Below, one piece after another: positions 2,193 through 10,638 of a stretch of DNA of 10,638 nucleotides. The position numbers and the translations under genes were made by a program. The notes under the pieces were generated by a model that worked only from the letters and a program-made list of their open reading frames with translations, was not told the origin of the DNA and ran no database searches. Position 1 is the first letter of the stretch. The number at the start of each line of letters is the position of its first letter. The stretch covers positions 1 to 10,638 of the forward strand of contig NQJI01000087.1 of the NCBI GenBank assembly GCA_002256705.1, read 5' to 3'. This DNA is from Methylococcaceae bacterium NSM2-1. Its GTDB lineage: Bacteria; Pseudomonadota; Gammaproteobacteria; Methylococcales; Methylomonadaceae.

Positions 2193-3974
2193 TTACAAAG
2201 AAATCAAGGCATTACCGCCGGCGACCGCGCCGCCTTCCTTGATATGAACAGCACTAACGATACCTGCAAATTTTGACCGCACCTCGGTTTCCATTTTCAT
2301 CGCTTCCATAATAACAACAACCTCGCCTTCGGCAACGGCACTGCCAACATCAACAAGAATTTTCAATATATTACCCGCCATAGGCGCATACACCACAGAG
2401 CCACTACTGACAACATGGCTTTTATCGGCGGCGGCAGGCTGAATTGTAAGTGGCGCACCAGCCGGACCTACTGTAACGTTAAAGTTTCTGCCATCTACGT
2501 TGACGGTATAAGTTTCGGTGACACCATCAACAGACGCTGTGTTAGGCGCATTGTTGGCCTCTGAAAAAGCTTGTGCATCGGGTGCAGCCTCAAATGCCTC
2601 AGGATTTCCACGATTGACCAGGAACTTCCAACCGACCTGAGCAAACATGCCATTGATTAATGCATCTTCTTCGATATTTTTAGCGAGTTTTACATTTTCG
2701 GCTTTGGCTTTTTCCTTTACCTCGGCAATCAGCTTATCCATTTCCGGCTCTATTAAATCGGCTGGGCGACAGGTAATGGGATGTCCACCTTCCAGCACTC
2801 TGTCTTGGAGTTGTTTATTAACAGGCGCTGGAGTTGCTCCGTATTCTCCTTTCAATACCCCCGCTGTTTCCTTGGTGATGGTTTTATAGCGTTCGCCACT
2901 TATGACATTTATAACCGCTTGTGTACCCACGATTTGTGAAGTGGGTGTCACCAGTGGAATAAAACCCAAATCTTCACGCACACGTGGAATTTCGTGCATG
3001 ACTTCATCGAATTTGTCAGCCGCACCCTGCTCTCTTAATTGGCTCTCCATGTTGGTCAACATGCCGCCAGGAACTTGAGCGATTAAAATACGGCTGTCTA
3101 CACCCTTCAGGCTGCCTTCAAACTGAGCGTATTTTTTGCGTATGTCCCTGAAGTAATGCGCGATTTCTTCCAGTTTAACCAAATCCAGCCCCGTGTCACG
3201 CGCTGTGCCTTCAAGACTGGCAACAATGGTCTCGGTTGCGCTGTGACTATAAGTCATGCTCAGCGTTGAAATGGCCGTATCGACATTATCTATGCCCGCT
3301 TCAGCAGCTTTGATTATGCTGGCCACACTTAATCCAGTCGTAGCATGACTATGCAAATGTATGGGAATCCGGGTGCTTTTTTTCAAGCGACTGACCAGTT
3401 CAAAGGCCTCGTAAGGCTTAAGCAAACCGGCCATGTCTTTAATACAGATGGAATGCGCCCCCATATCTTCAATTTGTTTACCCAGATTGACCCACGTATC
3501 CACGGTGTGTACGGGACTGGTAGTGTAGGAAATAGTTCCTTGGGCATGAGCATCGGTAGCGAGTACTGCTTTTACCGCGTGTTCAATGTTACGCATGTCG
3601 TTCATCGCATCAAAGATACGGAACACGTCAATACCATTGATTGCACAGCGCTCGACAAACTTATCAACAACATCATCGGCATAATGTCGATAGCCTAAAA
3701 TATTTTGTCCTCTCAGCAACATTTGCTGCGGCGTTTTAGGCATTGCCGCTTTCAGCAAGCGCAATCTTTCCCAAGGGTCTTCACCCAGATAACGGATACA
3801 CGCATCAAAAGTAGCGCCACCCCATGATTCGATAGACCAGTAACCGATCTGGTCGAGCTTTTCACATATCGGCAGCATATCTTCTATGCGTAAACGAGTG
3901 GCTAAGATTGATTGATGAGCATCACGCAAGACAACTTCAGTGATAGCCAGTGGCTTTTTTTTATCTTTTGCCAT
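2193..3974 (-). CDS. oadA: Oxaloacetate decarboxylase alpha subunit, with carboxyltransferase and biotin domains
   Basis: The 593-residue cytoplasmic subunit transfers the carboxyl group of oxaloacetate to biotin, releasing pyruvate. Domains in order: an HMGL-like (DRE-TIM) carboxyltransferase barrel at about 10-275, starting with RDAHQS (17-22); a conserved carboxylase/OadA domain at about 290-490; a short Ala/Pro linker; and a biotinyl domain at about 525-593 with EAMKME, where Lys560 is the expected biotinylated residue. Within the barrel, Lys179 (CIKDMAG) and His208/His210 (LHSH) match the catalytic lysine and metal ligands of the family. The length is typical for OadA. Pyruvate carboxylase subunit B is a close relative, but flanking oadG and oadB favour the decarboxylase pump. 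The ATG at 3972-3974 has GGAG upstream at slightly long spacing. Confidence 0.94.
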
Positions 3975-4098
3975 TCTTAATTTTTCTCCAGGAACCTTTG
4001 CAGGCTTTTAAACATTGACCTTTCGGGTCGTTTGAATGCGTTAAACACAAACCAATAATAGTCAAACGCCACAGACATCTAACCAAAAATTCTTAACT

Positions 4099-4335
4099 TT
4101 ATTTATGCTTGCTTCGGTGCTGATGCACCGCTGCCGTAATCGCTGCAATGATGCTTTTATCAATGCCGCTGGATACAGTAGTAGCAGCTACCACGAGGGT
4201 TGGTGCGTCTGGAAAAAAACGCTGCACCAATGATGACATAATATTGATCGCGACCACCAGCATGGTCAAAAAAAGGAACACAATGCCCATTCCGGCAAAC
4301 ATCAATTCGACTCCGCTACTCATCAGTTCTGTCAT
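4099..4335 (-). CDS. oadG: Oxaloacetate decarboxylase gamma subunit
   Basis: This 78-residue protein has one hydrophobic segment near residues 12-34 (MFAGMGIVFLFLTMLVVAINI) and a polar C-terminal half with an Ile/Ala-rich helix ending in HQHRSKHK. This is the architecture of OadG, which anchors and assembles the alpha and beta subunits. The sequence 'LMFAGMGIVFLFL' and the D-K-x-I-I-A-A-I-T-A-A-V-H stretch (residues 59-71) are typical of the family. The His-rich tail fits the metal-binding C-terminus reported for gamma subunits. It is first in the operon, as in most oadGAB loci. The ATG at 4333-4335 has AAGG nine bases upstream. The gap of 124 bases to oadA is large for an operon of this kind. 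Confidence 0.9.
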   Translation of the reverse strand: MTELMSSGVELMFAGMGIVFLFLTMLVVAINIMSSLVQRFFPDAPTLVVAATTVSSGIDKSIIAAITAAVHQHRSKHK

Positions 4336-4394
4336 ATCGCCAAACCTTGTATTGAAACTCTTGAATCTATTGAAAATCCTGAAACCATTGGTAC

Positions 4395-4423
4395 ATTATC
4401 CATAAAACCAAGCTGCTAAACAA
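4395..4423 (-). promoter_or_regulatory. Probable promoter of the oadGAB operon
   Basis: On the minus strand, TTGTTT (4418-4423) is followed by a 17-base spacer and GATAAT (4395-4400), a 5 of 6 match to the -10 box. The predicted start near 4388 gives a leader of about 53 bases before the oadG ATG. Confidence 0.42.
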
Positions 4424-4481
4424 ACTAAAGATAACTAACACCTTTGTTTTTGGATTGCCAATGGGATTGAATAGTGGCTAA

Positions 4482-4670
4482 TCAATGAAGGAGCATAGAA
4501 AGTGTAGCTTTAGCGGAACGGCGTACGACGCCCTCACATAGCTCGTATGGGCCGGAGGGTTTTGACGAAGATGGAGTGATAGGGGAAACATAGTCAAAAT
4601 ATAAGTCCATTCGAGACGGCGTCAAGTCATTGGGAGCCAGGTCGCGTGCTCGCGACACAAAGTACAGCAT
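4482..4670 (-). CDS. Doubtful 62-residue ORF inside the GC-rich intergenic block
   Basis: The frame is open from an ATG at 4668-4670 and encodes a product with SPITPSSSKPSGPYELCEG near its middle and VVRRSAKATLSML at the end. No ribosome binding site precedes the ATG, no family is recognised, and the frame spans the inverted repeats of the block. It is more likely a translation of a repeated or degenerate element than a gene. Confidence 0.13.
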   Translation of the reverse strand: MLYFVSRARDLAPNDLTPSRMDLYFDYVSPITPSSSKPSGPYELCEGVVRRSAKATLSMLLH

Positions 4671-4814
4671 AGAATGGACGCGAGCCTAATGCGGGCCGCT
4701 AAAGACAATAATCGCCAGGCCATCTCGCTGCTAAAGTCGATTGGATCCCCCACATTTTAGCTTTCGTGAACAATCCAGACACCTTGTTTAATTTTCCGGT
4801 ATTGAAATGATCTT

Positions 4815-4832
4815 GAGATTCCGAGGAATCTC
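4815..4832. repeat. 18-bp near-perfect palindrome
   Basis: GAGATTCC and GGAATCTC are perfect inverted repeats of 8 bp separated by GA. Neither strand has a T-tract after it, so it is not an obvious intrinsic terminator. It could be an operator for a dimeric regulator, a small hairpin, or part of the repeat-rich region downstream of tpx. Confidence 0.55.
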
Positions 4833-4915
4833 CATAGAGTCACTCACAGCGCCACTGCTTATTTTTTATGGTTTCCTGCTGATCTTTTTAAAACAGCTTT
4901 AAGACTACCTGTTAT

Positions 4916-5410
4916 TTACAACGCCGCCAACGCGCTTTCGTAATCCGGTTCGTTAGCTATTTCGCTCACCAATTGCGTATAAACAACGTTGTCATGCTCA
5001 TCAATAATGATGACAGCCCGGGCGGTTAACCCGGCAAGAAAGGTATCAGCCAGCTTTACACCATAGTCATCGGCAAAACCTGAACGGAATGTTGATAAAG
5101 GAATCACATGTTTTAAGTCTTCTACTTCACAAAATCGGCATTGTGCAAACGGTAAATCAGCAGAAATAACCAATACAACGGTGTTATACAAGTGTGACGC
5201 TTTCTCGTTGAATTTGCGCGTCGAAGCGGCGCAAGTGGGAGTATCCAGACTCGGTACGATATTCAGTACTTTCTTTTTACCAGCGTATGTTGCCAGAGTC
5301 ACATCCGCTAATTTACCATTGACCAGTGAAAAATCGGGGGCTTTGATGCCCACTGCCGGTAATTCGCCAGATGTATGAAGTGGTTTACCTTGAAATGTAA
5401 TAGTTGCCAT
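4916..5410 (-). CDS. tpx: Thiol peroxidase (Tpx, atypical 2-Cys peroxiredoxin)
   Basis: The 164-residue protein aligns end to end by eye with the Tpx family (E. coli Tpx is 168). It reduces hydrogen peroxide and alkyl hydroperoxides with electrons from thioredoxin. The peroxidatic cysteine is Cys60 in [11 protein letters not shown], with the catalytic Thr at 57. The resolving cysteine is Cys94 in RFCEVEDL. The C-terminal [19 protein letters not shown] is typical. An additional Cys91, where E. coli has Ser (QSRFC), creates C-R-F-C. The ATG at 5408-5410 has AAGGA seven bases upstream. There is no signal peptide, so it is expected in the cytoplasm. It is separated from der by a strong terminator, so it should have its own promoter, which I could not identify clearly in the 74-base gap. 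Confidence 0.96.
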
Positions 5411-5484: not shown

Positions 5485-6734
5485 TCATTCTTTCTTAGGT
5501 TTTGCTCGCTTCGCCAAACGTAGACGCTTTTGTACTTCCCACTCGGTGAGCTTCTTTTTTTGCCCGTGAAAAGGATTGACCGGTGATTTAAATTCCAGAC
5601 GTATCGGTGTCCCTGACAACTTTAGCTTGTCACGGAAATAATTCATCAAATAACGCTTGTAGGAAGTCGGCAACGCATCTGTTTGTACGCCATGAATAAC
5701 CACAATAGGCGGATTTCGCCCGCCCTGGTGTGCGTATTTTAACTTGATTCGACGCGTGTTCACTATTGGCGGTTGATGCGCAACAGTCGCTTCTTTAAGT
5801 ATTCGGGTTAACGCAGGCGTTGACATATCAAGCATCGCTGAATCATACAGTTTATGTACAACATCAAACAATTTGCCAACACCGCTGCCATGCAGCGCGG
5901 AAATGGGATGTTTTTCAGCAAAATCAAGAAAGGACAATTTCACATCCAATTGTCGATTAATGGTGTTTTTTTGCTCGGTACTTATACCATCCCATTTATT
6001 GAGACCAATAATCAACGCCCTTCCCGCTTCCAGAACCAGGCCCAGTAAATGAGCATCCTGATCGGTAATGCCTTCCCGTGCATCAATCAAATAAATAACA
6101 ACATTTGATTTTTCAATCGCTTGCAACGTTTTAATAACACTGAATTTTTCAATGGTCTCAGAAACTCTGGATCGTCTACGCATTCCCGCCGTATCAATCA
6201 GCGTAAACTGTTTGCCATTGCGTTCAAATGGAATATAAATGCTATCGCGTGTAGTGCCGGGCTCATCGAACACAATAACCCTTTCTTCACCCAGCAGCCG
6301 ATTAACCAGGGTCGATTTACCGACATTAGCAGTGAATAGAAGTCTGAAGCCGCTATTGTGGCATCAATACCATCAACCTTGTTTGTTACCAATATTACCG
6401 GTTTATCCAGCTTCCTCAGGGTATCGGCAATGACTTTATCTGAAGCACTGAGTCCTTCGCGGGCGTCGACCATAAATAACACGATGTCTGCTTCTTCCAA
6501 TGCAATTTGCACCTGCTTTCTGGCAAAGCTTTCTATGCCTTCTGCATCATCGGCTATACCACCGGTATCGACAACCAGGCACGCACGATCGCCGTGCTTC
6601 ACACGGCCATACTGCCGGTCTCTGGTTAACCCTGGGAAATCCGCGACCAGGGCTTCCCGACTGCGGGTTAAATAATTGAATAATGTGGACTTGCCGACAT
6701 TAGGGCGCCCTACCAGGGCTATTACAGGTAACAT
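5485..6734 (-). pseudogene. der: Ribosome biogenesis GTPase Der (EngA), broken by an internal deletion and frameshift
   Basis: Der has two consecutive GTPase domains and a C-terminal KH-like domain and acts in assembly of the 50S subunit. From the ATG at 6734 the first GTPase domain reads normally: GRPNVGKST (9-17), DTGGI (56-60), NKVDG (118-122) and DFYSL (131-135). E. coli also has DFYSL at 131-135. After base 6330 the frame is lost and runs about 43 nonsense residues to 6198. From 6327 another frame resumes with [20 protein letters not shown] and continues through TTRDS, DTAGM, NKWDG, SALHGSG and the KH domain GTPIRLEF to the stop at 5485. Missing are the end of domain 1, the acidic linker and the GRP of the second P-loop (76 residues in E. 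coli, often fewer elsewhere). The remaining 135 + 280 residues equal the rest of the family length. Since der is normally essential, a sequence or assembly error is as likely as real loss. Confidence 0.9.
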
Positions 6735-6738
6735 AGTG

Positions 6739-7803
6739 TTAAGGTGACCGGGTTTTTAAAGCGGCAAGTGTGCCGTCTTTTGCATAAATATAAACGGTAT
6801 TATCTACCACGATAGGTTTGGCATCGATTGCACTATCCGCAACTTTTATACGACCAAGTTGCCTCCCATCACTGGTAGACAACCAATGCACATAACCTTC
6901 AAAATCGCCTACCACGACATAGCTTTCATAGACAGCCGGAGCTGTTAATTTTCTTTGATGCAATTCCTTTTGTTTCCATAGTGACGCGCCACCGCGCTGT
7001 TCCAGCTGCCAAACATCATCGGTCGAATCTGATAAATACAGATACCGGAAATCATGACTCAAGCCGGTATAGGAAGAAATAGATTCATTACGCCACAACA
7101 CATCTCCATCCAATTCCGAAATGGCTGCGGCTCCGCCATTATAACTGGCAATATAAATCACGCCTCCCACTTCTATCGGATCAACATCAAGATCCACCAG
7201 CCTTTCAACCTCAGATCGTCCTTTGGGAATGGCGACACTGGTTTCCCAGACATATTTGCCATCGGTTAAACGCAATGCCATCAGCTTGCCATTATCGTAA
7301 CCAACGATCACATTATCCTCGACAATAATGGGGGCGCCGATTCCACGCACACTTAAAGCAGGTGCGTTATGTTCATAACTCCACAGTTTTCCGCCATTCT
7401 TTTCATTGAGGGCAATAATCGCACCATCCGTAGTGCGAACGACCACAATGCCATTGGCAATAACCGGCACAGAAAGCACCTCGCTGGATACCTCGGACTT
7501 CCAAAGCACCTCACCGTTTTCACTATTCAAGGCAACGACTTCTGCATCACTGGAACCCAAAATGACGGTTCCAACACCCAGACCAGGCCCGGCGGAAAAA
7601 TGCACGTCCGTCTCTGCTTCCCATACCAGGCGACCCGTGCTCAAATCTCTGACCTGAACCAATCCATCCCTATCTGCTGCCAGTATGTTGCCAGAGCCAA
7701 TTGCGGGATAATCGGAAATACCGGAAACAGACTCATTAAGGGTATCAAATGCAGCGCAACCTGCCAAAGCCAAACAAAACAATAAAAGCGTAATCAGGCG
7801 CAT
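6739..7803 (-). CDS. bamB: Outer membrane protein assembly factor BamB (lipoprotein)
   Basis: BamB is a lipoprotein of the BAM complex that inserts beta-barrel proteins into the outer membrane; it binds BamA on the periplasmic side. The 354-residue product has a signal peptide ending in the lipobox LAGC with the lipidated Cys at position 16. PQQ-like beta-propeller blades follow, visible as repeated 'G.v.AL...G...W' units: [51 protein letters not shown] and [14 protein letters not shown]. It is somewhat shorter than E. coli BamB (392). The ATG at 7801-7803 overlaps the yfgM stop by one base (TAATG) with no clear ribosome binding site, which suggests translational coupling. der begins four bases after its stop codon, the classical gammaproteobacterial order. 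Confidence 0.95.
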
Positions 7804-8450
7804 TATTTTTGAATTTCTATTTTTTCAGATGCGGTCAAATCATCAATTTTAAATTGCAATAACGGTGACTTGTGGCCATTTTCCAATGCTTTTTGATAAG
7901 AACTTCGCGCCTGATCCAAACGATCCAGGGCAACATACAAATCACCCACCAATTCATCATAGTTACCTGAAAAACTGGATGATGTTGCCGGATCGACATC
8001 GTTAATCAACTGCAATCCCTGTTCATATTCGCCGCTAGCCAGCATCAAACGAACCTGCCTGATCTTGGCAATGTTGCTCAACTCCTTATTCGACCCCGCG
8101 GCTATGCCCTTCAGAATTGCTTGTGCTTTAGCTGTATCACCTTGCTGAACTTTTAATTTTGCCAGCAACAGGCCGCTATAGGCTGCATATTGGGTCTTGG
8201 GGTATTGTTCCTGTATGCGCTCAGCCAGTTTCTCTGCGCTGTCTTTTTTGTCTGCCTCAATCGCCAGAATTAATTGACTATATAACGATGACGCCTGCTC
8301 CGCCTGAGCCTTCTTATGATCTTGCCAATAGTTCCAGCCCAGAATGACAGCAATACCAAGGACCAGACCTATAATCGTCGACTGTCCATTTTCTTTCCAC
8401 CATCTTTTTAATGCGTCAAGTTGTTCTTCTTCTGTTTCGTAAATTTCCAC
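7803..8450 (-). CDS. yfgM: YfgM family tetratricopeptide protein, inner-membrane periplasmic chaperone-like
   Basis: The 215-residue protein has a short cytoplasmic N-terminus (EIYETEEEQLDALKRWWKEN), one membrane segment at about 26-43 (GLVLGIAVILGWNYW), and a periplasmic helical TPR-like domain (TPR_21 type) to the end. E. coli YfgM (206 residues) has the same layout, associates with SecYEG and PpiD, and aids periplasmic protein folding. The start is GTG at 8448-8450; the frame and the EEEQLDALKRWWKENG motif fit the family start, and AAGAGA lies upstream. It lies between hisS and bamB, its usual place, with a 57-base gap after hisS and a one-base overlap with bamB. Confidence 0.92.
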   Translation of the reverse strand: MEIYETEEEQLDALKRWWKENGQSTIIGLVLGIAVILGWNYWQDHKKAQAEQASSLYSQLILAIEADKKDSAEKLAERIQEQYPKTQYAAYSGLLLAKLKVQQGDTAKAQAILKGIAAGSNKELSNIAKIRQVRLMLASGEYEQGLQLINDVDPATSSSFSGNYDELVGDLYVALDRLDQARSSYQKALENGHKSPLLQFKIDDLTASEKIEIQK

Positions 8451-8500
8451 TGGCTTTCTCTTGTTTGTATTTTTAAAAATAGCAGGTATTGCGCAGGCGG

Positions 8501-8518
8501 GGTTACGCTACGCTAACC
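8501..8518. repeat. Short palindromic element at the 3' end of hisS
   Basis: GGTTACGCTACGCTAACC has inverted arms GGTTA/TAACC around a tandem CGCTA core. From memory, very similar GGGTTACGCTACGCTAACCC units recur as dispersed repeats in several methanotroph and cyanobacterial genomes; this is recall, not a search. Read on the minus strand it supplies the last codons (Arg-Leu-Ala) and the TAG stop of hisS. Confidence 0.5.
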
Positions 8519-9788
8519 TACATAGCTCTTGCAAAAAGGCACACGTTTGTTCCCGGGATAGCGTTTGCTGTTCCTGCTCGCTACGTAACGATTTGACGCT
8601 GACCTCGCCTCGACTGACTTCATCGTCGCCCAAAATAATGGCATATTCAGCGCCTGATTTGTCAGCTTTTTTAAACTGACTTTTAAAACTGCCGCCGCCG
8701 CAATTCACTTGCAGCTTCAATCCTGGCACCTCATTTCTGATAATTTCAGCAAAACGCAAGCCTTCCCGTTCGGCAGTTTCACCGACACGAATCATGTACA
8801 CATCAACGGTTCTTGCAACCGGGACATTACCCAACGTTTCCATCAAAGCCAACAAGCGTTCAATGCCCATTGCAAAACCCACGGCATAATTGGGTTTGCC
8901 ACCCAACTGCTCTATCAGACCATCATAGCGTCCACCCGCACACACAGTGCCCTGTGAACCCAGTTCATCAGTCACCCATTCAAAAACAGTCTTGCTGTAA
9001 TAATCCAGTCCGCGCACCAATCTGGAATTAAGTTCGTAGCTGATCCCCAGATCGTTTAATGTTTCGGTTAATGCATTGAAATGTTTCAGGCTTTCATCGC
9101 CCAGATAAGCCATTAATTCGGGCGCATTGGCAACCAGGTTTTGCATGGCCGGGTTCTTGGTGTCCAGAATCCGCAAGGGATTGGTCTCCAACCGGCGTAA
9201 ACTGTCTTCATCCAGCTCATCCAGGTGCTCCTGGAAATAGCCGACCAATGTTTCCCGATAAGCCAGCCGTTCAGCAATAGTGCCCAGGGAATTCAGCTGC
9301 AAGCGCACTTTATCGCGGATACCCAGCTTTTTCCATAAGCGATCCATAATCAGAATCAATTCAGCATCGATATCAGGACCCGACATGCCATAAGTTTCAA
9401 CACCCAATTGAATAAACTGGCGATAACGTCCCTTTTGCGGGCGTTCATGGCGATACATGGGGCCGTAATACCATAACCTGTGCACCTGATTATGTAACAG
9501 CCCATGCTCCAGACAGGCTCTAAGACAGCCTGCCGTCCCTTCCGGGCGCAAGGTTAAGGAATCTCCGTTACGATCCTCAAAGGTGTACATTTCTTTTTCG
9601 ACTATATCGGTCACTTCACCAATAGAGCGCTTGAAAAGTTCTGTCTTTTCTACAATCGGCAGCCGGATTTCACTATAGCCATAGGCACCCAGCGCGTCTC
9701 TTATCATTTGTTCCGCGTACTGCCAGAGTGGTGTTTGCTCGGGAAGCACATCGTGCATCCCGCGAATTGCTTGTATATTATTAGCCAT
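8508..9788 (-). CDS. hisS: Histidine–tRNA ligase
   Basis: Histidyl-tRNA synthetase is a class II synthetase that charges tRNA-His in the cytoplasm as a homodimer. The 426-residue product (E. coli 424) shows RPEGT (81-85); motif 2 [14 protein letters not shown] with Arg113 and Glu115; the histidine-binding [12 protein letters not shown] (259-270); AGGRYDGL (284-291); and motif 3 GFAMGIER (304-311). A C-terminal anticodon-binding domain runs from about 330 to 426. All key motifs are intact. The ATG at 9786-9788 begins [16 protein letters not shown], the standard N-terminus, although the ribosome binding site is weak. It follows pilW after 18 bases. The last three residues and the stop codon are formed by a short palindromic repeat, so the C-terminus may have been altered by its insertion. 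Confidence 0.97.
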
Positions 9789-9823: not shown

Positions 9824-10565
9824 TGATTTGTTTTGCTTCATCTGAAAGTGGAAATTTTTCCATTAACAAGTTTTGGTATTCTTTTGCCAGCGCAGCATTA
9901 CCTAATGCTCGTTCTGTTTGCATACCGAACCATAAAGTTCCTGACGTATGCGCTGCAACGCTCAGGTAGCGTTGTAGATAGCCTTTTGCCGCCCAATATT
10001 CGCCGTTTTGATAACTGATTTTTTGCATTTCCAGCAATGCAGGCGCGTAAGTGTTGTTAAGTATCAGCGCTTGCTTAAAGTAAGCCTTGGCACCCTGTTG
10101 TTGTTTCATTGCCAGTTGGCAACGTCCGGCATTTGTTAATGCCAGCCACTGCCTATCGTTTAATTGAGTCGAAATAGCCTGATTCAATAAAGCCATGCCT
10201 TGTTCATATTCGCCACGGTCGCAGAGGAAACGGCCAAAGTTGTTTTGTACGCTCCAATCATCCGGTGACACACCCAGCGCCATTTCATAATGTTCCTTGG
10301 CTTGGTCATAGTCATTCAATTTTTCATACAAAAAAGCAAATGCATTATGTACCTGAGCATTATCGGGATCTTTTTTTAATGCCAGCTGTAAGTTCTCTTT
10401 AGCTACTTCCAGCTTGTTCAGATCCATGTAGCGCACCCCCAGTTGCAAATAGATACTGGCAGAATCATCATTTTTGGTACCGGTCGATGAAGCGCAAGAA
10501 GTAAATACAAGTGTTAAAAACAGGCCAACAAGACAATTAATTATTTTTGATGTGTCAGGCAGCAC
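9807..10565 (-). CDS. pilW: Type IV pilus biogenesis/stability lipoprotein PilW (PilF), TPR
   Basis: This family is an outer-membrane lipoprotein of TPR units needed for assembly of the PilQ secretin and for pilus stability. The 252-residue product has a hydrophobic signal (residues 8-22) ending in the lipobox FTSC with Cys24. TPR units follow, with visible helices near 38-71 (YLQLGVRYMDLNKLEVAKENLQ...), 72-105 (AQVHNAFAFLYEKLNDYDQA...) and 106-140 (QNNFGRFLCDRGEYEQGMALL), and more to the end. The start is GTG at 10563-10565, overlapping the end of rlmN by 11 bases, which suggests translational coupling. Its position after rlmN and before hisS is the standard one, though the usual rodZ and ispG are missing downstream. 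No other pilus gene is in the window. Confidence 0.9.
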   Translation of the reverse strand: MLPDTSKIINCLVGLFLTLVFTSCASSTGTKNDDSASIYLQLGVRYMDLNKLEVAKENLQLALKKDPDNAQVHNAFAFLYEKLNDYDQAKEHYEMALGVSPDDWSVQNNFGRFLCDRGEYEQGMALLNQAISTQLNDRQWLALTNAGRCQLAMKQQQGAKAYFKQALILNNTYAPALLEMQKISYQNGEYWAAKGYLQRYLSVAAHTSGTLWFGMQTERALGNAALAKEYQNLLMEKFPLSDEAKQIKPVLQ

Positions 10566-10638
10566 GCTCTGAACCTGTTGCCTTTAGCTTAAGGTGTCTG
10601 CGACTTTTATCCTCAACTTGCCCGACCAGTTGACCACA
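10555..10638 (-). CDS. rlmN: 23S rRNA (adenine-C2)-methyltransferase RlmN, C-terminal end only
   Basis: An open frame enters from the right edge and ends at TGA (10555-10557), giving 27 residues. It begins CGQLVGQVEDKSRRHLKLKA. The CGQL...R(R/T)R pattern matches the C-terminus of RlmN (E. coli CGQLAGDVIDRTRR). The Cys at the start is the conserved catalytic cysteine of this radical-SAM enzyme, which methylates A2503 of 23S rRNA and A37 of some tRNAs. The rest of the gene, including the CxxxCxxC cluster, lies outside. It overlaps the pilW start by 11 bases, as expected for the head of this operon. Confidence 0.82.
   Translation of the reverse strand, partial: CGQLVGQVEDKSRRHLKLKATGSERAA

Follow-up and report, generated by a model that had tools for sequence, protein, structure and literature searches.

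The window analysed here, 10,638 bp long, is the entire contig C273 of a draft assembly of 1,902,074 bases (1.90 Mb) that is split into 279 contigs and has an estimated completeness of 65%. Its minus strand carries the genes hisS, yfgM, bamB, der and tpx. The products Der, BamB and thiol peroxidase (tpx) were named by NCBIfam profile match, while the names hisS and yfgM are presumed from the reading of their open reading frames. In the compared parts of four related genomes (G018, G012, G020 and G022), collinear blocks with the contig are found. The neighbourhood of der, composed of bamB, yfgM and hisS, is common to the relatives' stretches, as expected of a Der/EngA gene. The genome is related to Methylobacter-like methanotrophs: among the named species genomes listed, metagenome assemblies of Methylococcales and of Methylobacter-like bacteria are the nearest neighbours by Der. 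Two of the genes, der and bamB, are each interrupted by an internal loss, with the following organization:

5485-6734, minus strand: der as a whole, two reading frames joined at 6330/6329
6330-6734, minus strand: first part of der, 135 intact residues of GTPase domain 1 ending in SDFYSL, matching positions 1-135 of profile TIGR03594 with 178.8 bits
6329-6330, minus strand: blunt junction at which 148 bp of der are absent
6198-6329, minus strand: out-of-frame tail of the first frame, 43 residues followed by a stop codon at 6198-6200
5485-6327, minus strand: second part of der in the other frame, 280 residues from NVGK to the stop, matching positions 184-432 of TIGR03594 with 328.8 bits
6739-7803, minus strand: bamB, 354 amino acids with 43 codons lost internally and in frame, matching TIGR03300 with 372.6 bits
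7708-7709, minus strand: second blunt junction, position uncertain by 1 bp, at which 129 bp of bamB are absent

Elsewhere, the match to the relatives also breaks near 5488, 8481-8519, 140-1039 and 4451-4900; these breaks are intergenic or lie where length varies among the relatives, and are taken as ordinary variation. Two small ORFs (245-920) are found between the contig start and position 1039, where G018 has only ~140 bases; this is either an insertion in the window or a loss in G018.

Both pieces of der match TIGR03594, the profile of the two-domain ribosome biogenesis GTPase Der/EngA, and do so in the right order. The window's gene differs from this family in lacking profile positions 136-183 and in changing frame at the gap, and two complete domains in one frame are not found. 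The second part, which comprises GTPase domain 2 and the carboxyl terminal domain, scores alone above the profile cut-off of 306.7 bits, while the first part remains below it. The frame reading and the profile matches agree with the initial annotation, in which the first domain ends at YSL (residue 135, base 6330) and the protein resumes at NVGK (base 6327) in a different frame. That annotation also described the gene as broken exactly between its two GTPase domains. The division in two pieces holds, but the break is not a clean one, as the missing stretch removes the GRP of the second P-loop in addition to the last portion of domain 1. The lost end of domain 1 includes what we take to be the G5 region.

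The length of the loss was established by comparison with relatives. All six that span the der site carry 148 bp more than the window between flanks of 60 bases; a seventh, G014, was left out of this count, its contig beginning inside the missing stretch. The value equals 3x50-2 and bears out the earlier estimate of a loss of 3k-2 bases. In the nearest relative (locus L009 of genome G005), bases 1-405 of the query align to 1495-1899 and bases 406-1247 to 2048-2889, with 148 bases left over. The two blocks are 92% and 90% identical, and the encoded residues are identical at 131 of 135 positions in part 1 and 266 of 280 in part 2, one of the 14 differences in part 2 opposing the stop of L009 to the last residue of the window. 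At the edges of the junction no base is shared with the segment present in L009: its bases next to the left and to the right flank both differ from those of the window.

Broader surveys give the same picture. Among 40 relatives searched for Der, 34 have a single full-length match, five a partial one (G004, G010, G014, G015 and G032) and one (G008) none at the threshold used; two Der pieces on one contig occur in the window's genome only. Of 80 species loci listed, 79 could be judged for the der segment (L090, which starts at a contig edge, was left out) and none is without it. Sister genomes, whose comparison had been proposed in the initial annotation, carry the segment in all cases that could be judged. 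The 178-aa product of the broken frame finds full-length identity, among the 120 matches listed, only in the window's own protein (P0001, one member on one contig). The 240 homologues listed include no near-identical, intact Der from this very species; the best full-length protein among them is identical at 131 of 135 and 268 of 279 residues. Matches were also obtained in 28 plasmid records, all within the 60-80% identity band. In locus L116 a run of 145 N (4802-4946) directly precedes the der match and might be a scaffold gap or masking. It is not counted as proof of a scaffold gap because some N stretches in the collection stem from masking.

A working split Der, made either as two polypeptides or as one polypeptide by programmed frameshifting across the junction, was among the options of the initial annotation. 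Both frames are open over the junction (the first down to 6198, the second from ~6363), which speaks for such an arrangement. Its anatomy fails nonetheless. No start codon (ATG, GTG or TTG) precedes NVGK in the second frame, where the first one is a GTG at 6273, downstream of the P-loop, and a product made by frameshifting would still be without the closing stretch of domain 1 and without the second P-loop's GRP. The halves do not each have a start of their own and a complete nucleotide site, and a conserved piece is lost from each domain; by our assignment of the motifs, each domain would, if split, be without part of its nucleotide site. In the homologue collection, 208 of the 240 listed proteins cover both Der parts (the other 32 failed the coverage rule) and every one of the 208 keeps 47 to 79 residues in between. 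A statement in PMC3466195 that cites earlier work holds that both G domains are needed in vivo. A functional split Der is therefore extremely unlikely here.

The two parts of der show no decay. Only one of the 415 der residues, an alanine in part 2, is private to the window when 13 relatives are compared. Codon changes were attributed to the branch of the window or to that of G005 using up to five outgroups, and ambiguous differences were dropped. On the window branch, part 1 of der (135 codons) has one non-synonymous and four synonymous changes, with 18 differences unassignable, and part 2 (271 of 280 codons aligned) has one and ten, with 38 unassignable. The corresponding non-synonymous/synonymous counts are 7/10 for hisS, 4/9 for tpx and 7/9 for yfgM, where 60, 21 and 30 differences, respectively, were dropped as ambiguous; pilW was left out of the comparison. 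By these counts, der was under strong constraint until its loss, if any loss happened, and this constraint fits an artefact or an event that is very recent. An old pseudogene is ruled out by the codon pattern together with the near-absence of private residues. It is also barely conceivable that an intact der-bamB locus exists elsewhere in the genome, of which the one seen here would be a decaying duplicate. The bin is incomplete and could harbour such a locus, but der is free of relaxed constraint and the collinearity with G018, G012, G020 and G022, over the compared parts, speaks against it too.

The claim that everything else is intact, made in the initial annotation, is correct for der but not for the contig. 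Alignment of the whole window to its relatives revealed the loss in bamB, which had escaped notice: 129 bp are missing at 7709/7708 relative to all seven relatives measured. The alignment break falls at 7701-7709, varying by relative, and the edges of the relatives' segments share 0-1 bp. BamB is consequently 354 residues long, compared to 397 in L055, and the reading frame stays open because the loss is in frame. Nine of the 80 species loci listed were not judged for this segment; none of the remaining 71 is without it, two divergent ones among them aligning over 34 of its 43 residues. The rest of bamB accumulated 11 non-synonymous and 10 synonymous changes on the window branch, 52 differences being dropped as ambiguous. 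This ratio is looser than that of der and counts against an artefact, but in G005, whose bamB is intact, the values are 16 and 19.

Another draft genome (L107) has a BamB match, at 3398-4438, with an in-frame gap that is likewise 43 residues long. It falls between two blade motifs that resemble each other and looks like the collapse of one propeller repeat. Its place is a different one, and it was not counted as the same event as the loss in the window.

The two junctions are ~1.38 kb apart and have the same character. With 0 bp of shared edge in der and 0-1 bp in bamB, neither repeat collapse nor slipped-strand deletion fits, while plain concatenation of the flanks does; the blunt edges relative to the relatives rule out repeat collapse as the origin. 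Blunt joins, edges free of repeats, a missing length that is constant among relatives and intact flanks, as expected when a gap is joined without Ns, are all found. Of its options, the initial annotation preferred an error or an event of very recent date, and the results agree and lean further to error, on account of the bamB loss, which strengthens that side, the fragmented assembly, the intact relatives and a comparable loss in G005 described below.

A real and very recent deletion is the main alternative. It would be present in part of the sampled population, the strain concerned being rescued or dying, while an intact der would exist in other cells or among the unbinned sequences of the genome. 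The clean flanks of der are compatible with this reading, and about one third of the genome lies outside the 65% complete bin, leaving room for a second copy. It would, however, require two blunt, repeat-free deletions ~1.38 kb apart in neighbouring genes with no other lesion found, and the broken product occurs, among the matches listed, on the window's contig only. A search of the 65% complete assembly for a second der, as the initial annotation had advised, found none, other matches to the Der profile reaching at most 95.4 bits, and no second bamB was found in it either. The missing piece of der and a second piece of bamB were likewise not found elsewhere in this assembly, although their absence is weak evidence when about one third of the genome is missing. 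A recent deletion of this kind is overall unlikely. It is very unlikely that a methanotroph lineage truly lost an intact Der together with a full BamB very recently and survives either by a bypass of Der in large-subunit assembly or by an intact copy elsewhere.

The occurrence of similar losses was surveyed in seven other contigs of the window's genome (104,834 bases) by comparison with G005, G018 and G012, the match tables being read by eye. Candidates were places where two query matches almost touch while two relatives or more carry an excess of at least ~60 bases; small differences inside long gapped matches are below resolution. No counterpart existed for roughly the initial 12 kb of the C226 stretch or for some shorter ones. 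No further clear loss of the same kind was seen in these seven contigs. A candidate at 16105-16151 of C226 lies at the end of a reading frame and was not taken as a loss. Two others (C241 ~8340-8513 and C1 ~16575-16709) were rejected: G012 and G018 have extra bases there, but G005 aligns straight through. Judged from these alignments, such losses would not be dense over the window's assembly, and a dense, genome-wide stripping of gaps is unsupported. Two losses in 10.6 kb and no clear one in the seven other contigs call for a local cause.

These alignments also uncovered a dispersed repeat of ~100-180 bp, found at ~5111-5294 of L136 (contig C241 of the window's genome) and at 4759-4923 of contig C319 of G005, between der and tpx. 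It recurs at two places in G005 and at three in G018, outside the collinear match. At the end of L139 (contig C10 of the window's genome), the last 139 bases (10429-10567) are 99% identical to contig C115 of G005, while the main G005 matches are 89% identical.

A loss of the same type was found in G005 itself, at 2878/2879 of contig C208 (L158). Relative to the window's genome (G000) and G012, 86 bp are bluntly missing (88 bp relative to G018), which removes the start of the gene and its first hydrophobic stretch; G000, G012 and G018 keep both. The gene is presumably nqrF. The event resembles those of the window in being a blunt loss within a conserved gene of a draft genome and differs in the genome and gene affected. 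G005 corresponds to the draft genome of NSP1-1 (contig NQJG01000062.1), which PMC6222125 describes as assembled from short reads with IDBA-UD.

It is highly probable, taking these results together, that the break in der is an artefact of the draft assembly and not a real biological feature. The fragmented, 65% complete assembly, the two nearby blunt losses, the clean der flanks, the presence of the segments in all judgeable relatives and the nqrF loss in G005 all support this interpretation. Two short stretches, of ~148 bp in der and ~129 bp in bamB, would have been left unassembled due to low coverage or strain variation, and their flanks would then have been set side by side without Ns by the assembler or scaffolder, probably on the basis of paired short reads. 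The sizes of 86, 129 and 148 bp could be spanned by short-insert read pairs. We infer both the joining step and its cause. By keeping the frame, the bamB loss resembles a tolerated real deletion, which is one point against an artefact, yet one third of random losses are in frame.

Spurious pseudogenes resulting from low-coverage assembly have been documented, and the cases drawn here from PMC11017572 resemble the window in having a single clean lesion per gene, intact flanks and a draft genome. They concern frameshifts and internal stops in bacterial assemblies, while the window lacks blocks of 129 and 148 bp.

Der is required by most bacteria. Most likely, der and bamB are both whole in the living organism and its Der is an ordinary two-domain GTPase of ribosome assembly. 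If the break is an artefact, it warns that essential genes in draft metagenome assemblies can show losses of blocks of ~90-150 bp that no Ns signal, and that annotation may turn such losses into pseudogenes, truncated genes or gene fissions. Were the loss real, the window would represent a natural example of bacterial life in which Der is not intact.
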